NCBI GenBank assembly: GCA_021776515.1
Contig: JAJFFS010000008.1
Location: forward strand, 62,001-126,000
Length of the DNA stretch: 64,000 nt
Source: Robiginitomaculum sp.
GTDB taxonomy: Bacteria > Pseudomonadota > Alphaproteobacteria > Caulobacterales > Maricaulaceae
Direction: 5' to 3'
The notes under the pieces are model-generated. The model was not told where the DNA came from and did no database searches. It worked only from the letters and a program-made list of their open reading frames with translations. The translations under genes were made by a program, and so were the position numbers. Below are positions 37,316 through 45,172 of this stretch, piece by piece (position 1 is the stretch's first letter; the number at the start of each line of letters is the position of its first letter).

Positions 37316-39175
37316 ATGAGTGAGCGCGAATCCCGTATTGATGCTTTCAAGCGCGCCCTGAGCGCCACTACCCGGGCGCTATCGGGCAAGCGTGCGCTTG
37401 ATGTGCGTTTTGGCGGTGATCAGGCCGTGTTGATTGATGATGGGGTTAACCTGCCGGTGCCATCTGCCAAACCAGGTGCCCGGGCAATTGCCGTAGCGCG
37501 CGGGCGTGCTGATGCGCTGGCCTTGCGTCTTGCCCACCATAACCCTCGCGCCCATGCACGGCTCAGCCCCGCCAACCCGCAAGGCAAAGCCGTATTTGAA
37601 GCACTGGAGCAGGTGCGCTGTGAAACCCTGGGTGCGGCGGCCTTAAAAGGGGCTGGCGAAAATATGCACACGGCCCTCTCGGAACGCTGCGTCAAGCAAG
37701 GCTTTGCCAGTTTGACAGACCGCGAAGCGGCACCTTTGGCAGACGCCGTGGCGCTGCTCGCCCGCGAACGCATTACCGGCGTACCGGCACCAAAAGAAGC
37801 ACAGGGCTTGCTGTCTTTATGGCGCGGTGAGGTCGAGAAAAAAGGCGGTGCAGCCTTAAATGAATTGCGCAGCGGGCTTGATGACCAGCGCGCTTTCGCT
37901 GAACTGGCCAAAGTGCTGCTGGACGATCTGGATATTGGCGATATGCAGGCCTTGCCAGAACAAAAAGAAGAAGAGGAACGCGCGGAAGAGGGTGAAGGTA
38001 ATCCCAGTGCGCAGGACGGCGACGATAATGAAGGCGATAGTGAAGATGCACCGCCCGATGGCTCAACAGATCAGGGCGAGGGAGACGAAAGCGAACAACA
38101 GGCTGCTTTGCTGGATGATGAAAGCGATGTTGGCGATGCGCAGGATGGTGCCGGTGAAGATTTACCTGTACGCCCGAATTACCAGCCCGGCGGCGGCGAG
38201 GGTGCGCGCTATCAGACCTTCACCACCAAGCATGACGAAGTCACCCGCGCCGAAGACTTATGCGAACCGCCAGAGCTGGAGCGCTTACGCGGTTATCTGG
38301 ATCGCCAGCTTGATAAATTGCGCGGCGCTGTGGCACGGCTGGCCAACAAGCTGCAACGACGCTTGATGGCGCAGCAACAACGTTCGTGGGTTTTTGACCT
38401 CGAAGAAGGCGTGCTGGACCCGGCGCGGCTAACACGGGTTATCACTGATCCCTTGTCGCCACTTTCTTTCAAGGAAGAAAGCGAGACGGATTTTCGTGAT
38501 ACTGTGGTGACGCTGCTGCTGGATAATTCTGGCTCCATGCGCGGGCGGCCGATCATGATTGCGGCGCTTACCGCCGATATTCTGGCGCGCACGCTGGAGC
38601 GATGCGGCGTCAAGGTCGAGATACTGGGCTTTACCACGCGGGCATGGAAAGGCGGACAATCCAAGGAAGACTGGCTGGCTGCTGGCAAACCCTTAAACCC
38701 TGGCCGTCTTAATGACCTGCGCCATATTATCTATAAGGCTGCTGATGTGCCCATGCGCCGGGCCAAAAATAATCTCGGCCTGATGATGCGCGAAGGTCTT
38801 TTGAAAGAAAATATCGATGGCGAGGCGCTTTTATGGGCGCATACGCGCCTGCAATCGCGCCCGGAAGCGCGGCGTATCCTGATGGTTATCTCGGATGGAG
38901 CGCCGGTGGATGATACCACCCAGTCACATAATCCCGGCGGCTATCTTGAGGCGCATTTACGAACGGTGATTGCCGAGATTGAGAACTATTCAGATGTGCA
39001 ACTCATCGCCATTGGCATCGGTCATGATGTCACCCGCTGGTACAGCCGGGCCGTCACGCTGACCGATGCGGAACAGTTGGGCGGTGCAATAACCGAACAA
39101 CTGGCGGATCTGTTCGATGAAAATGAAGTGCGCAGCAAGGCACCTCGCCGCTCTGGCTTCAAAGCGGCTTCCTAG
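37316..39175 (+). CDS. cobT: Cobaltochelatase CobT-type protein with VWA domain
   Basis: Partner of CobS, 619 residues. An N-terminal helical region (about 1-205) leads to a very acidic linker (about 210-285, Glu/Asp/Gly-rich) and a C-terminal von Willebrand A domain with the metal-binding MIDAS motif [13 protein letters not shown] (about residue 400) and [12 protein letters not shown]. It is preceded by cobS after nine bases. It ends against convergent thrC, the two stops sharing CTAG (39172-39175). Length and order match CobT of aerobic B12 producers, but the chelatase subunit CobN is absent here. Confidence 0.94.
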
Positions 39176-40449
39176 CCCGCTAAAACCTCCGCCAGTGCCG
39201 CAAGCTCAGCCGGAATATCGATCACCTGCATAGACAGGTTTTCAATGGCGGCTAATGCCGGGCTGGGCTCTACTTCACCGGGGATGAGCGGCTCGACGAT
39301 TTCCTTGAACTTGAACGGATGTGCGGTGGCCACCAAAATCCAGGGTTTATTTTTTTCGACAAGACCTAGCTGGTCATAGGCATAGGCGGCAATGGCGCTA
39401 TGGGGGCACCAGATGTGATCGGCTTTGCGGGCATCATGGCTGATTTGCGCGGCGATGGTTTCATCATCCACACTGATGGCATGCAGATCATGATTAAGGG
39501 CATCGAGGCTGGTTTTGAAGCGTTCAAAGTTTGATGGATTACCCACGTCCATGGCATTGGCAATGGTGGGAATTGATGCAGCAGGGGCAAAGGCCTTGCC
39601 GCCAAAATAATCGGTTAAGGCGCGGTTGGCATTTTGCGCCAGCACCACATTGCCAATGGGCAAACCGCACGCACGCGCCCACAGGCAGGCCATACCATTG
39701 CCCAGATTGCCGGTGGGAATGACATAGTTTGCGGGTGCGCCTGTATCACGAAATATTTGCACCGCACTGGCCGCATAATAAACCATTTGCGGCAACAGGC
39801 GGCCAATATTGATGGAATTTGCCGAGCTAAGCCCGTGGCGGGTTTTCAGGGTTTTATCGGCAAAAGCGGCTTTGACCAAAGCCTGACAGTCATCAAAGTC
39901 ACCATCCACGCGCAAGCTGGTGACGCTATCGGGCCAACAGGTGAGCTGACGTTCCTGAAACGGGGATACCCGTCCCTTGGGGTAGAGGATCACCACTTTG
40001 GCAGCGCGGGCGTTGGCGAAGGCACAACCCACCGCCCCACCGGTATCGCCAGAGGTGGCCACCAGCACAGTTAGCGGCGTGTCTGTACTGGCCATGCGAT
40101 CCATGGCGGCGGCCAGAAACCGGGCACCAAAATCCTTGAACGCTGCCGTAGGGCCGTGAAACAGCTCCAGTGCATAGTGCTTGTCATCAAGGGCGATAAG
40201 CGGCGCGGGAAAATTAAAAACCTGCTCGCAAATGTCCGCCAGTTCCGGGGCCAGCGTATCGTCTTCAAAAAACGGCGCTAGCAGGGTTTTGGCTATGCCC
40301 GTCAGATCACCCGGATCAGTAAAGTCACTGGCGGTAAATTGGGGAAATGATTGCGGAATATAAAGTCCGCCATCAGGGGCTGCACCCATTAACATGGCTT
40401 CGGATACGGACAAGTCCGGGCTTTGTTCTTTGGTGCTGACAAAGCGCAT
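39172..40449 (-). CDS. thrC: Threonine synthase
   Basis: PLP enzyme converting O-phosphohomoserine to threonine (425 residues). It begins [11 protein letters not shown] and has [11 protein letters not shown], the PLP Lys in [14 protein letters not shown], the phosphate-binding [12 protein letters not shown] and the [14 protein letters not shown] block. It is the long, proteobacterial/fungal type. ATG 40449 overlaps the thrB stop (TGATG), so it is the coupled last gene of thrA-thrB-thrC. A longer frame upstream is thrB sequence. Confidence 0.98.
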
Positions 40450-41396
40450 CAGGATATAACCTCTGCGCAGCACGGTACCAAAGGTGTTTCATAGAGGGTT
40501 GTGTCGCAATTAGCCGCCTCAAAGGCAGCCCTCATGGCAGTACGAACCGCAGGTGCTTTGGCATTTTGTACCCAGACAAAAACCGAAGGTCCGGAACCGG
40601 AAAGCGAACAGCCCAGTGCGCCTGCCTCAAGGGCCGCGGCTTTAACAGCCGCCAAAGGTGGGACCAAAGCAGCCCGTTGTGGCTCTATCAAACAATCGCG
40701 CAGGTTTTGCGCAATCAGTGTGGTGTCATTCAAAAAACATCCGGCGACAAGGCCGCCCACATGGCGCATTTGGGTGATGGCTGTGGGCAATGGTACAGCG
40801 GGGGAGAGAATATCCCGCCCATCCGCCGTGTTGACGGTAAAATCCGGGTGAAACAACAGGCACGTTAGTCCCTCCGGCAGAGGTATGGGCGTTATTGTTG
40901 GTGCGATGCCCTCGCCGATAAACACCAAATCACCATAAAGCGCGGCGGCAACATTATCCGGCGGCGGCGGGTCAGAAGAGGCCGTTTCACCCTCCATGGC
41001 GCAGGCAAAAAGCTCGTCTTGTGACAGTGATGTGGGCAAAAGCGCATTGACCGCCAATGCTGCGGCAACCGCCGAAGCCGCCGAGCCGCCCATGCCAGCG
41101 CTTATGGGTATGCCTTTGGTAATATCCAGGTGCACAGAAAATGAGGCATTGGCTTTATCCAGAACGGCCTTGCCCGCCCGAAGCGCCGTATTGCGCGCAA
41201 CATCCTTAGGGAGGGTTTTCACCAGACCGCTAATGCGGTCCAGCCTGATAATCGGAACGTCGTCGCCATCATCCTCGCCTTTATGGGCGGTGACACTATC
41301 CCAGGCCGCACCAAAGGCTTGACCCAAACAGTCAAAACCGGCGCCAACATTACCTATACTGGCCGGTGCGCGGGCCGTTTTCATTCGGGTGTTCAC
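40449..41396 (-). CDS. thrB: Homoserine kinase (GHMP type)
   Basis: ATP-dependent kinase making O-phosphohomoserine, 315 residues. The GHMP signature is PISAGMGGSAASAVAAALA, preceded by ARAPASIGNVGAGFDCLG, and the C-terminal GCSLSGSGPSVFV motif is present. This is the ThrB of the E. coli type rather than the choline-kinase-like ThrB found in many alphaproteobacteria. Start GTG 41396 is listed; ATG 41384 at MKTARAPAS is the alternative. It lies 30 bases after thrA and overlaps thrC. Confidence 0.95.
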   Translation of the reverse strand: MNTRMKTARAPASIGNVGAGFDCLGQAFGAAWDSVTAHKGEDDGDDVPIIRLDRISGLVKTLPKDVARNTALRAGKAVLDKANASFSVHLDITKGIPISAGMGGSAASAVAAALAVNALLPTSLSQDELFACAMEGETASSDPPPPDNVAAALYGDLVFIGEGIAPTITPIPLPEGLTCLLFHPDFTVNTADGRDILSPAVPLPTAITQMRHVGGLVAGCFLNDTTLIAQNLRDCLIEPQRAALVPPLAAVKAAALEAGALGCSLSGSGPSVFVWVQNAKAPAVRTAMRAAFEAANCDTTLYETPLVPCCAEVIS

Positions 41397-41426: not shown

Positions 41427-43199
41427 TCAGGCGCAGGCAGGCTCTGCCGCACAGACGGTTATCGTCTCCTCATCCTGTCCGCGCAAGCGATGAATATCTA
41501 AAAGATCAGCCATCACCGCTTCGGCCGTGGGCCAGCGTCCGGCACCCTTGCCGCGCAACTGCACATCGTCACCACCGTCCATATCAATAACCAGACGGTT
41601 GCGCTCACCTTTGGCACCAGCAAGATAATGATCTTTTGGAAGGGTTTTTAGCTCAACGCTGGCCTGCAAGGCACCTTTGCTATTCCGTTTAATCTGGCTG
41701 ACTTGACGAATAACCTTGCCGTCATTGCGGGCTGCTTCGACCCGTTTGGGATCAAGATCGCTTAGGCTTTCCATACTAATCTGCGAGGGGCGCAAGGGCG
41801 TGTTAAAGCCATGGCGCGCCATCAGGCACAATTTGGCCGCAGCATCATCACCATCCAGATCCGCAGACGGATCAGCTTCGGCAAACCCGGCTTCCTGTGC
41901 CTCGCGTACAGCCACGTCAAACGCGCAGCCATCCGCCAGACGATCCAGAATGAAATTGGCCGTGCCATTAATCACACCGTTTACATTCTTGACACTGCCC
42001 GCTTCACGGGCCTGATCCAGTGCCTCAAGCATGGGCACACCACCGCCGACAGCAGCGCTATAGCGCAATGCCCGCCCGGCACCTGCCGCCGCTTTGTGCA
42101 AGCTGTCATAATTGGCAGCCATTACTGCCTTGTTGGCAGAAACCACATCGGCACCGCCAAAGAATGCGTTCAGGATAAAGGCATCCGCTGCTTCAACGCC
42201 GCCAATCATCTCGACCACAATATCCGGGCGGGTGGCAAAGACGACACTGGCATCATCGCTAATGAGGTGTTCGGGCGCTCCTTCTGCGCGTTCCTTGGTG
42301 GCATTACGCACCAGAATGCCGCTCACTTCAAACAAATCCTGATGGCGCTGCAAATGCGCATAAACACCCTCGCCAACCGTCCCAAATCCTAAAAGCACAA
42401 CTTTCAAACGCTTGACCCGTGCGCTGGCATGCGAGGACAATCCATTAGGCGAGATACACGTATCAAAGCCGCGCGCCGGGGCGGCAATTTCAAGGCGCAG
42501 GTCATGCTGCCGGGCATATTCAAGGGCGCGGGGTTGAATGGATTTTCCGCAATATTTGTAGGCATCCTCCCAGTTAATCTGACCAAAGCGGCGGGATACC
42601 GGGTCAGCCTTAGGGTCGCTTACATAAAGCCCATCAACATCCTTGATGAGACGAACCCGTTTTGCATTCAGGGCTGCGCCCAGATATATAGCACTTAGGT
42701 CTGTACCGCCTCGCCCTAAAAGGGCTGGCTGGCCATCTTCCAATATACCGCTGAAGCCTGGCACCACCAATACTTCGTGTCGGGCAAGCAGGGTGGTTAG
42801 ATGGGCATGATCAAGGCCGCAAAGTCGTGCATCATCAGGCTTGCCGGCAGCGCGCAGATTTATCTGTGCCGGGTCAACCGCGCGTGCATCAACGCCGATA
42901 CGTTCCAGCGCTAATCCCAAAAGGGCCGCCGCACGTATTTCGCCCAGTCTTAACAGGGCCGAAGCGCCTGGCGCATTTTCGCAACCACCAATATCCGCGC
43001 CTAATGAAACCAGTTCATCGGTTTCACCGGCAAGGGCGGAAACTACCGCCAACACTTTTTCGCCCGCTCTGAGATAACGGTAAATTTCATGAGCTGCCGC
43101 ATGGACAGCCTGGGCATCCGCCAGAACAGACCCGCCAAACTTCAGTACGGCAAGATTGGACGGGTTTGCTGACTTATCGGTGACGATGATGGGGCGCAT
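41427..43199 (-). CDS. thrA: Bifunctional aspartokinase-homoserine dehydrogenase lacking ACT domains
   Basis: A 590-residue fusion. Residues about 15-252 are the aspartokinase catalytic domain (KFGGSVL at 20-26, LGRGGTDLSA at 161-170, LIKDVDGLYVSDPKA, KSIQPRALEYA). Residues 264-590 are homoserine dehydrogenase (VVLLGFGTVGEGVY, SANKAVMA, YSAAVGGGVPMLEALDQA, EADPSADLDGDDAAAKL). E. coli ThrA (820 residues) has about 220 residues of ACT-containing regulatory sequence between these parts; here the joint is about 12 residues, so threonine allostery is probably lost. ATG 43199 has AGGAA seven bases upstream. It heads thrA-thrB-thrC and is preceded by an attenuator and leader peptide. Confidence 0.95.
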   Translation of the reverse strand: MRPIIVTDKSANPSNLAVLKFGGSVLADAQAVHAAAHEIYRYLRAGEKVLAVVSALAGETDELVSLGADIGGCENAPGASALLRLGEIRAAALLGLALERIGVDARAVDPAQINLRAAGKPDDARLCGLDHAHLTTLLARHEVLVVPGFSGILEDGQPALLGRGGTDLSAIYLGAALNAKRVRLIKDVDGLYVSDPKADPVSRRFGQINWEDAYKYCGKSIQPRALEYARQHDLRLEIAAPARGFDTCISPNGLSSHASARVKRLKVVLLGFGTVGEGVYAHLQRHQDLFEVSGILVRNATKERAEGAPEHLISDDASVVFATRPDIVVEMIGGVEAADAFILNAFFGGADVVSANKAVMAANYDSLHKAAAGAGRALRYSAAVGGGVPMLEALDQAREAGSVKNVNGVINGTANFILDRLADGCAFDVAVREAQEAGFAEADPSADLDGDDAAAKLCLMARHGFNTPLRPSQISMESLSDLDPKRVEAARNDGKVIRQVSQIKRNSKGALQASVELKTLPKDHYLAGAKGERNRLVIDMDGGDDVQLRGKGAGRWPTAEAVMADLLDIHRLRGQDEETITVCAAEPACA

Positions 43200-43228
43200 A
43201 ATAAAATTCCTAGAGATGGTAGCATAAT

Positions 43229-43260
43229 AAAAAAACCCGCTTCGCGGGGCGGAGCGGGTT
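43229..43260 (-). terminator. Intrinsic terminator (attenuator) in the thr leader
   Basis: On the minus strand AACCCGCT (43260-43253) pairs perfectly with AGCGGGTT (43241-43234), 8 bp, and is followed by a run of T (to 43229). It lies between the leader peptide stop (43289) and the thrA ATG (43199). Since it precedes the operon it must be conditional, as in amino-acid attenuators. Confidence 0.9.
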
Positions 43261-43306
43261 AAAACGATCAAATGTTAGAAACTTCAGATCATTCCAGGCC
43301 GCCCCG
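43245..43306 (-). promoter_or_regulatory. Antiterminator pairing of the thr attenuator
   Basis: CGGGGCGG in the last codons of the leader peptide (43306-43299) is the exact complement of CCGCCCCG (43252-43245) inside the terminator hairpin. Forming this 8-bp GC-only helix blocks terminator folding. A ribosome stalled at the Thr block (43107-43136) would leave the first arm free; a ribosome at the stop codon would cover it. This is the classical attenuation logic. Confidence 0.8.
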
Positions 43307-43411
43307 TGTGAGGTATGTTGTCATAATTGTTGTGGTGCCAAGAATAATCGATAGCGAATGCATAGAGCATCCGCCGAAGGTGTTTCCCGAAATAGAGTGC
43401 GCCTGGCGCAT
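43289..43411 (-). CDS. thrL: Threonine operon leader peptide
   Basis: A 40-codon ORF just upstream of the attenuator. Its C-terminal half, IILGTTTIMTTYLT (residues 22-35), has six Thr and three Ile in 14 codons, comparable to ThrL of E. coli, where Thr and Ile codons sense charged tRNA. GAGAG lies about eight bases before ATG 43411; ATG 43363 would give a 24-residue peptide with the same control block. The stop is 29 bases before the terminator stem. No function beyond attenuation is expected. It is short for a confident gene call, but the codon content and the RNA pairing agree. Confidence 0.85.
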   Translation of the reverse strand: MRQAHSISGNTFGGCSMHSLSIILGTTTIMTTYLTRGGLE

Positions 43412-43714
43412 AGTTTTCTCTCTTCTATTTGGTTCTGGCAGCCAGTGTGAGACCGACAGGTTAAGGCTCTCTAAAAGCAAGCCAGGGAAAAAATCAATCC
43501 CTTTTTTATGTCTTTTTGTGTTTTGGCGCATATTTGTGTCATTTAAGGCACTGTTGTTGGCGTAAACTTGCCAGATAGATGGCGGTCATCTAAGGTGTCG
43601 TTCTTGTTTGTCGAAGCGATACCGTGTTTGCTTTTATAAAAGTAGCGCGCAGTAAAAGCCGCAAAGGCCGCCGACAAATGAGAGGAAACGCCCGGAAGAC
43701 CATTGTTCTTCCCA

Positions 43715-43740
43715 GGCCGCCATTTGGCGGTCTTTCTTTT
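43715..43740 (+). terminator. T-rich hairpin (possible attenuator) directly before gltD
   Basis: GGCCGCC (43715-43721) pairs with GGCGGTC (43726-43732), 7 bp with one G-U, loop ATTT, followed by TTTCTTTT. It ends 13 bases before the gltD TTG. A second copy of GGCCGCC at 43666-43672 could pair with the same 3' arm as an alternative. No leader peptide is evident. The remaining gap between thrL and this hairpin (43412-43714) holds the two divergent promoters but no clear gene. Confidence 0.55.
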
Positions 43741-43753
43741 CGTGGAGTTTCCA

Positions 43754-45172
43754 TTGCTTACGTTTGCTCAAACAGGTCGTAGCGCGCCAGCGCGTCGGAA
43801 AAACACCGACAGAGTCACAGATTTTGATGAAATATATAAACCGTTGGAAATGCAAAAACTGCATGAGCAATCCGAACGCTGCGCCCAGTGCGGGGTGCCA
43901 TTTTGCCAATCTGGCTGTCCGCTGGACAATAACATACCCGACTGGATGAACCTTGCGGCGGCCGGGCAGGAACGTGATGCCTGGGACTTAAGTGCGGCCA
44001 CTAATACCCTGCCGGAAATTTGTGGGCGTATCTGCCCGCAGGATAAATTATGTGAAGGGGTTTGCGTACCCGGGCAAGCCGGCTTTGGTGCCGTTACAAT
44101 CGGGGCTATTGAAACGGCGTTGAGCGAGCGCGCGTGGGATGAGGGGTGGATTACCCCCATCAAACCAAAGCAGGAGCTGGAACATTCAGTCGCCATTGTT
44201 GGTTCTGGTCCGGCGGGACTGGCAGCGGCAGCCATGCTGCGTGAAGCCGGGTTTCAGGTTGAAGTTTTTGAACGCGCTGACCGCCCGGGTGGTCTTCTGA
44301 CCTATGGTATTCCCTCGTTCAAGCTGGAAAAAGATATTGTTCTGCGGCGTACGGACTGGCTTGATCAAAGCGGTGTTCACTTTCATCTGAACTGTGAGGT
44401 GGGCGCGGATGTGCAGCTTGCTGATCTGCGCAGCAAGCACGGCGCTGTATTGCTTGCTGGTGGCGTTTACGAGGCCCGGCGGCTGAATACGCCGGGGGCG
44501 GGTGAAGATATGGTCGTGCCCGCGCTTGAATACCTTATTGGCGCGAACCGCCTCGGGTTTGGCGATACGGTTGAGGCCTTTTCGCAAGGCCGGTTAAACG
44601 CACGGGACAAGCAAATTGTGGTCATTGGTGGCGGTGATACAGCTATGGATTGCGTGCGCACCGCTGTGCGTCAGGGTGCTAGTAAAGTCACTTGTCTTTA
44701 TCGCCGTAATGAAACCAATATGCCAGGCTCACGCCAGGAATTGGAAAATGCCCGCGAAGAGGGTGTGGAGTTTTTATGGCTGGCAACACCAAAGGCGATA
44801 CATGGCAAAAACGTTGTGCCAAACAAGATTAAGGCTGTGCGCATGCAACTGGGGGCACCGCAAGCCGATGGTCGGGCGCAGCCAGAGGAGATGCCGGGCA
44901 GTGCCTTTGAGGTGCGGGCAGATATGGTGATCGCTGCCCTTGGGTTTTCCCCCGAAGATTTACCTTCAAAATTCGCCGCCCCCGATCTGGAAACGACAAA
45001 ATGGGGAACCCTGTCGGTGGGGCGCAAGGGTTATGAAACGTCGTTGGCGAGGGTTTATGCCGCTGGTGATTGTGTTCGCGGTGCCTCTTTGGTGGTCTGG
45101 GCCATTCGTGAAGGCCGGGATGCTGCGGCACAAATTATTCACAATACTATCGCAAAGGAACTGGCCGCATGA
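43754..45172 (+). CDS. gltD: Glutamate synthase (NADPH) small subunit
   Basis: Electron-input subunit of glutamate synthase, 472 residues. The N-terminal Fe-S region has CAQCGVPFCQSGCPLDNNIP and CGRICPQDKLCEGVC; then an FAD motif VAIVGSGPAGLAAAAMLREAG and an NADPH motif VVIGGGDTAMDCVRTA. It ends YAAGDCVRGASLVVWAIREG. The start is TTG 43754: GGAG lies six bases upstream (43744-43747) and no ATG is available before the conserved sequence. The frame is also open upstream through the hairpin at 43715. The stop overlaps gltB by four bases (ATGA), in gltD-gltB order, reversed relative to E. coli. Confidence 0.95.
   Translation: MLTFAQTGRSAPARRKNTDRVTDFDEIYKPLEMQKLHEQSERCAQCGVPFCQSGCPLDNNIPDWMNLAAAGQERDAWDLSAATNTLPEICGRICPQDKLCEGVCVPGQAGFGAVTIGAIETALSERAWDEGWITPIKPKQELEHSVAIVGSGPAGLAAAAMLREAGFQVEVFERADRPGGLLTYGIPSFKLEKDIVLRRTDWLDQSGVHFHLNCEVGADVQLADLRSKHGAVLLAGGVYEARRLNTPGAGEDMVVPALEYLIGANRLGFGDTVEAFSQGRLNARDKQIVVIGGGDTAMDCVRTAVRQGASKVTCLYRRNETNMPGSRQELENAREEGVEFLWLATPKAIHGKNVVPNKIKAVRMQLGAPQADGRAQPEEMPGSAFEVRADMVIAALGFSPEDLPSKFAAPDLETTKWGTLSVGRKGYETSLARVYAAGDCVRGASLVVWAIREGRDAAAQIIHNTIAKELAA

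Follow-up and report, generated by a model that had tools for sequence, protein, structure and literature searches.

The thrABC locus and its leader region

The window analysed here, a stretch of 64,000 nucleotides (64 kb) from contig JAJFFS010000008.1 of a Robiginitomaculum sp. genome, encodes thrA, thrB, and thrC in this order on the minus strand, preceded by a short leader open reading frame (ORF) and an intrinsic terminator. Robiginitomaculum is placed in the Maricaulales, Alphaproteobacteria, in the NCBI taxonomy. The features of the locus are as follows:

39172..40473, minus strand: thrC, threonine synthase (profile searches)
40449..41396, minus strand: thrB, homoserine kinase of the GHMP type (profile searches)
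41427..43199, minus strand: thrA, fused aspartokinase-homoserine dehydrogenase of 590 aa, no ACT domain (profile searches)
43229..43260, minus strand: intrinsic terminator, AACCCGCT ... AGCGGGTT plus seven T (sequence and folding)
43245..43252, minus strand: CCGCCCCG, the originally predicted exact complement of segment 2, an alternative antiterminator register (sequence and folds)
43250..43257, minus strand: segment 3, CCGCUCCG, pairing with segment 2 in the shared register and overlapping the terminator 5′ arm (predicted folds)
43260..43269, minus strand: 3′ strand of the second antiterminator helix, GAUCGUUUUA (predicted folds)
43287..43296, minus strand: 5′ strand of the second antiterminator helix, UGGAAUGAUC, over the stop codon (predicted folds)
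43289..43411, minus strand: leader ORF, 40 codons plus stop, with six Thr, three Ile, and one Met codons in residues 22-35
43299..43306, minus strand: segment 2, CGGGGCGG, final codons of the leader ORF and 5′ strand of the antiterminator (predicted folds)
43307..43348, minus strand: control stretch of Thr/Ile/Met codons (residues 22-35), putative ribosome stall site (sequence and codon count in 77 leaders)
43418..43426, minus strand: purine-rich AGAAGAGAG, a candidate ribosome-binding sequence 5′ of the leader ORF (read from the sequence)
43703-45172, plus strand: divergent ORF, taken by eye for gltD (ORF list)

The leader ORF runs on the minus strand upstream of thrA from the ATG at 43411 to the stop codon at 43291-43289 and encodes the peptide MRQAHSISGNTFGGCSMHSLSIILGTTTIMTTYLTRGGLE; each of the ten genus sequences has an ATG aligned to this start. 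The original prediction of a 40-codon leader whose residues 22-35 include six Thr and three Ile codons was exact on re-reading, and its Thr/Ile account is amended by the one Met codon within the control stretch. The 8-bp terminator with a T run that it had placed ahead of thrA was confirmed at 43260-43229. The GC-rich arms, AACCCGCT (43260-43253) and AGCGGGTT (43241-43234), run into seven T at 43235-43229, the fold reaches -16.8 kcal/mol (3 of 200 shuffles were equally stable), and 29 nt separate the terminator end from thrA, whose ATG lies at 43199.

A promoter scan of the leader region found no sigma-70-like promoter on the minus strand. The Rfam family RF00506 (Thr_leader) had no match at E values up to 5 in window positions 42000-44500 and none at the gathering score anywhere in the 64-kb window; the E. 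coli thr leader, used as positive control, scored 122.1 bits. Near-matches to other Rfam families in the leader region (Trp_leader with 20 bits, and others) were below the cut-off and were taken as chance. Elsewhere in the window, a serC leader (RF00517, 19943-19994, minus strand, 59.3 bits) was the sole Rfam match over the cut-off.

Across both strands of the window, 18 ORFs of 8-75 aa reach six or more Thr/Ile in 12 codons; of these, the leader ORF alone has a hairpin and T5 within 100 nt downstream. The terminator scan is nonspecific by itself, with seven terminator-like sites in the 1 kb around the leader against 1.1 expected. That such sites are common here speaks for a reading in which the terminator simply ends transcription, or marks where a small RNA ends, and the leader ORF lies there by coincidence. 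Against this, the next large upstream ORF (gltD by eye) is divergent, so that no minus-strand gene was seen which would need a stop at this position; the relatives bear on the same question.

A fused ThrA without ACT domain and the leaders of its relatives

In the window genome, ThrA alone matches homoserine dehydrogenase. Enteric ThrA proteins carry ACT regulatory domains between their two catalytic parts. By contrast, the ACT domain was absent from all 62 fused proteins scanned, although the same models do detect it in the two other aspartokinases of the window genome. The window ThrA also falls short of the enteric ThrA model PRK09436 (190.4 bits, cut-off 726) and is ~30% identical to E. 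coli ThrA over the two parts. The original prediction of a thr attenuator before thrA is supported, with the amendment that the likeness to the enteric system does not extend to the enzyme, which belongs to another family and lacks the ACT domain. The closest named records are eight Robiginitomaculum MAGs with 67-83% identity in ThrA. In a quick tree with weak inner support and a long E. coli branch, the homoserine dehydrogenase (HSD) part groups with five Planctomycetota, Acidobacteriota, and Gemmatimonadota fusions, apart from 32 alphaproteobacterial Hom proteins and E. coli ThrA. ACT-less aspartokinase-homoserine dehydrogenase (AK-HSD) fusions also occur in these three phyla (L161-L191; four loci ACT-scanned), where three open frames reach ~940 aa. 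A 2007 survey of 58 proteobacteria reports AK-HSD fusions in gammaproteobacteria only (PMC1885841), a picture that the alphaproteobacterial fusion extends.

Acquisition of operon and attenuator from a gammaproteobacterium would fit the shared order thrLABC and the similar leader end. It is opposed by the low identity to E. coli ThrA, the missing ACT domain and the 190 of 726 bits, by the company of the HSD part in the quick tree (planctomycete, acidobacterial, and gemmatimonadete fusions, with E. coli on a long branch), and by RF00506, unmatched in the window region and scoring 122.1 bits on E. coli. We regard this origin as hardly probable, and as the least probable of the alternatives weighed in this study. 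Judging from the sequences, the arrangement instead looks convergent with enteric thrLABC and separately arisen.

Ten of the 18 genomes of the genus have the fusion, as do 85 of the 137 of the family at E <= 1e-100. With E <= 1e-60 as the limit, 120 of 398 genomes of the order match ThrA, a few through the HSD part alone. Among the genus genomes, six of 18 (G003, G005, G007, G008, G013, and G015) had no detectable homoserine dehydrogenase domain; since three of them are at least 92% complete, these organisms may rely on an external supply of threonine and methionine. An ordinary alphaproteobacterial Hom takes the place of the fusion in two others (G004 and G010, loci L014 and L013), and many same-family relatives (e.g. 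G025, G081, and G111) have a second, short homoserine dehydrogenase (frames of ~330-380 aa) besides the fusion.

We read 125 regions upstream of the fused gene, 85 obtained via the family search and 40 via the order search; 6 of 30 g21 and 2 of 11 f5 matches, two f1 matches to the HSD part only, and the second G055 copy were outside the sample (g and f labels denote genus and family groupings of the relatives). Partly by eye, we classed 77 of the 125 upstreams as having both a Thr/Ile-rich leader ORF and a terminator, and 48 as lacking this combination. These 77 span ten genera, and presence is all-or-none by genus. As the 77 were hand-chosen from the output of the ORF scan, their contrast with the remaining 48 is partly circular. 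In an automatic ORF test, at least six Thr/Ile in 12 codons were detected in 72 of 77 attenuated upstreams versus 3 of 48 others (shuffles 0-4, reverse strand 1), and at least seven in 68 of 77 versus 1 of 48, with none on the reverse strand of the 77 and none in five mononucleotide-shuffle sets. With a strict hairpin test, a terminator was detected for six of the ten genus upstreams and for 16 of the 19 from g13, in three g13 cases at a distant place; a looser T-run rule detected one in all 77 (L141 placed by hand). The distance from the leader stop to the T run is 50-63 nt in 77 of 77, where 25-95 nt were allowed. Both this narrow spacing of ORF and terminator and the occurrence of an ORF of the 7/12 grade in just one of the 48 upstreams of the other class argue against a coincidental leader ORF beside a plain stop signal or small-RNA end, which we consider very improbable.

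Beyond the fused genes of the order, no Thr/Ile-rich leader ORF at 7/12 precedes any of 90 stand-alone hom genes across the class (reverse strand, 1 of 90), drawn from the better-scoring of 232 matching genomes and including two upstreams shortened by contig ends, one of them to 274 bases. This agrees with the earlier view that attenuation of a thr operon is no standard feature of Alphaproteobacteria. At the 31 fused-gene loci from other phyla, no leader ORF was found at the 6/12 threshold or above.

In a ThrA tree of 124 rows of the order and 28 of other phyla (L087 dropped), the attenuated genes fall into two groups, one of 52 from the same family and one of 24 from g21, plus a lone g11 row, so that three changes of state, gain or loss, are needed for the attenuator. 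In the window, and likewise in all 31 attenuated same-family genomes tested, thrA is succeeded by thrB and thrC; these genomes contribute 32 loci, one of them being represented twice, and L011 was not among the loci tested. In g21, six of six loci had no thrB match and had their thrC match on the opposite strand; the g21 attenuator thus precedes a thrA without a same-direction thrB or thrC after it. Neither gene was found within ~4 kb in 10 of 10 unattenuated loci, one of which is short. A SAM riboswitch (RF00162) divergent to the fused thrA was seen in 2 of 10 loci in one scan (L117 and L124, both of g21) and in 5 of 20 loci in another (L076, L077, L083, L084, and L106, all of unattenuated relatives).

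At leader positions -18 to -9, the 77 leaders contain 54% Thr, 14.5% Ile, and 7.6% Met, compared to 2.8%, 3.3%, and 1.3% of the same residues in the thrA genes. The Ile codon ATT is commoner in leaders than in thrA in clades g6, g13, g16, and g21 (in g21, 23/48 vs. 11/311). Trp is over-represented in the leader stretch as well (2.0% vs. 0.4%; all 15 cases in g13), and thus not every enriched leader codon need be regulatory. Met, with start residues counted, occurs in the leaders of g1 (10/10), g13 (19/19), and g21 (9/24), in one of 15 leaders of g16, g8, and g15, and in none of six in g6. With the first residue excluded, 19 of 21 same-family genomes with a single homoserine dehydrogenase have Met in the leader versus 12 of 32 others (p 0.00015), gene counts that include some incomplete genomes and two G046 matches which may be one split gene. 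The association follows clades, and all 12 two-enzyme g13 genomes retain Met. A tie between leader Met codons and the role of the fusion as sole homoserine dehydrogenase is offered as a suggestion only.

Predicted competing pairings

A joint MAFFT alignment of 50 leaders from the same family was of low quality where the sequences are G-rich, and clades were therefore folded separately: g1 (the window genus), g13, g16 with g8 and g15, and g21 were folded as clades, while g6, g4, g19, and g11 were not. The consensus folds of all four join the GC-rich last part of the leader ORF to the 5′ arm of the terminator. Folding the leader in both states, a check proposed along with the original prediction, thus yielded a competing pairing in the window genome and in four clades, and terminator and antiterminator are predicted to be mutually exclusive, the latter using the end of the leader ORF.

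The original prediction had proposed an 8-base complement between 43306-43299 and 43252-43245, which is exact as first stated. This pairing is possible in the window genome, but it is not conserved in the nine other genus sequences: CCGCCCCG is present in L004, where segment 2 is changed, the complement is missing from L005-L007 and L010-L012, and in L008 and L009 its letters occur solely at the terminator 5′ arm, i.e. in the shared register. We therefore rejected the CCGCCCCG register as the common antiterminator and retain it as an alternative only. In the shared register, 43306-43299 of the window genome would pair with 43257-43250, and a further helix of 10 bp spanning the stop codon would lengthen this pairing. 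The two registers are about equal in predicted stability, with -26.6 kcal/mol for the shared register, over a slightly different stretch, and -26.9 kcal/mol for the alternative before the terminator 3′ arm is complete. The region 43245-43252 includes part of a second CCCGC copy able to pair with GCGGG, and the alternative register would also cover most of this copy. A residual hairpin beside the T run is possible in the antiterminated state in 8 of 10 genus sequences (-8.0 to -8.5 kcal/mol), and one of ~-8 kcal/mol appears in the full-length minimum fold of the window genome; the switch may thus be leaky.

The pairing of the ORF end with the terminator 5′ arm is stronger than that of adjoining windows before and after it in 77 of 77 upstreams, and the best 30-nt partner within the upstream region falls at the ORF end in 67 of 77. 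Compared to same-composition shuffles, the segment 2-3 pairing reaches p<0.05 in 31 of 77 (median p 0.075; none of 11 in g16), and much of its strength comes from the G-rich composition. The pre-terminator and full RNAs of the window genome fold better than 200 of 200 shuffles (z -3.9). For 73 of 77 leaders, folding predicts a 1:2 protector hairpin, with p<0.1 against shuffles in 11 of 77; its window-genome version is weak, at -4.1 kcal/mol with p 0.42.

The search for covarying pairs in relatives, likewise proposed at the outset, had a divided outcome, as leaders and Thr/Ile codons recur and two-sided changes are few. In the genus, 3 of 20 pairs changed on both sides, one cell each and in the most divergent rows, L011 and L012, a level reached by 11 of 500 shuffles; the three other clades had 0 of 16, 1 of 12 (a pair that does not belong to the segment 2-3 helix), and 0 of 8. 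Covariation support is modest to weak, and the case for the attenuator draws less on it than on recurrence, position, and codons. This weakness, together with the g16 pairing that does not rise above composition, would suit a leader that acts by another route than a 2:3/3:4 switch, be it a trans-acting peptide or small RNA, Rho, or translation coupling, and the Sinorhizobium trp leader peptide is reported to act in trans (PMC7298713). Against such a route stand the terminator, with its T run and its end just 29 nt from thrA, and the competing pairing predicted in 4 of 4 clades folded. Another route appears quite improbable to us, if the least so of the alternatives weighed.

Proposed mechanism and comparison with known systems

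We conclude that the element is very probably a ribosome-mediated transcription attenuator of the thrABC operon that senses charged tRNA-Thr, tRNA-Ile, and perhaps tRNA-Met. This reading builds on the parts, their order and spacing, their recurrence in relatives, and the ACT-less ThrA, all of which were established by sequence analysis. RNA polymerase would start at a promoter upstream of 43411, and a ribosome would translate the leader. With ample charged tRNA-Thr, tRNA-Ile, and perhaps tRNA-Met, it would reach the stop codon and cover segment 2, allowing the terminator (43260-43229) to form. If any of these tRNAs were uncharged, the ribosome would stall in the Thr/Ile/Met stretch, segment 2 would pair with segment 3 and capture the terminator 5′ arm, and thrABC would be transcribed in response to the amino-acid shortage. 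The original proposal that the enteric attenuation logic operates here is supported by leader, Thr/Ile codons, and terminator recurring in 77 of 125 upstreams, and by the competing pairing in four clades.

Attenuation may stand in for the missing enzyme feedback. A broader reading, to which we give somewhat less than even credence, is that thrLABC was assembled a second time, in Alphaproteobacteria, around an ACT-less fusion, with feedback moved to an mRNA leader that reads Thr and Ile, plus Met where the fusion is the sole HSD. The element would place an enteric-style thr attenuator in a class where our survey found none before 90 stand-alone hom genes, and would link it to a fusion that lacks the customary allosteric domain. 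Related genera that have the fused gene with or without the attenuator would offer a natural experiment on the replacement of enzyme feedback by transcriptional feedback.

Attenuation of the thr operon is classical in enteric bacteria. The element in the window resembles enteric thrL (RF00506) in its Thr/Ile-rich leader ORF, the terminator just 5′ of thrA, the GC-rich ORF end resembling the 3′ arm of the terminator, and the order thrA-thrB-thrC. It differs in the lack of an RF00506 match in the window region (the relative L043 reaches 31.7 bits, cut-off 55), in a longer leader with a second antiterminator helix and a Met codon in the stretch, and in a ThrA from another family without ACT. Vitreschak et al. 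are said to have described in 2004 a thrA attenuator of Pasteurellales whose leader contains Thr, Ile, and Met codons; by this description, it is alike in having these codons before a fused thrA and differs in its gammaproteobacterial ThrA.

The literature searched (titles and starts of abstracts; Vitreschak et al. 2004 lies outside it) held no report of a thr operon attenuator in Alphaproteobacteria; the mechanism is known, and its occurrence in this class is new to that literature. Attenuation as such has been described or suggested in the class: the Caulobacter ilvIH leader peptide is one case (PMC4117421), and Sinorhizobium SEP5 has been suggested as a possible Thr/Lys-rich leader before an aspartate dehydrogenase gene of the aspartate pathway (PMC10117765). 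These leaders share alphaproteobacterial attenuation with the element described here and differ from it in their target genes, which are not thrA or hom, and in their codons.
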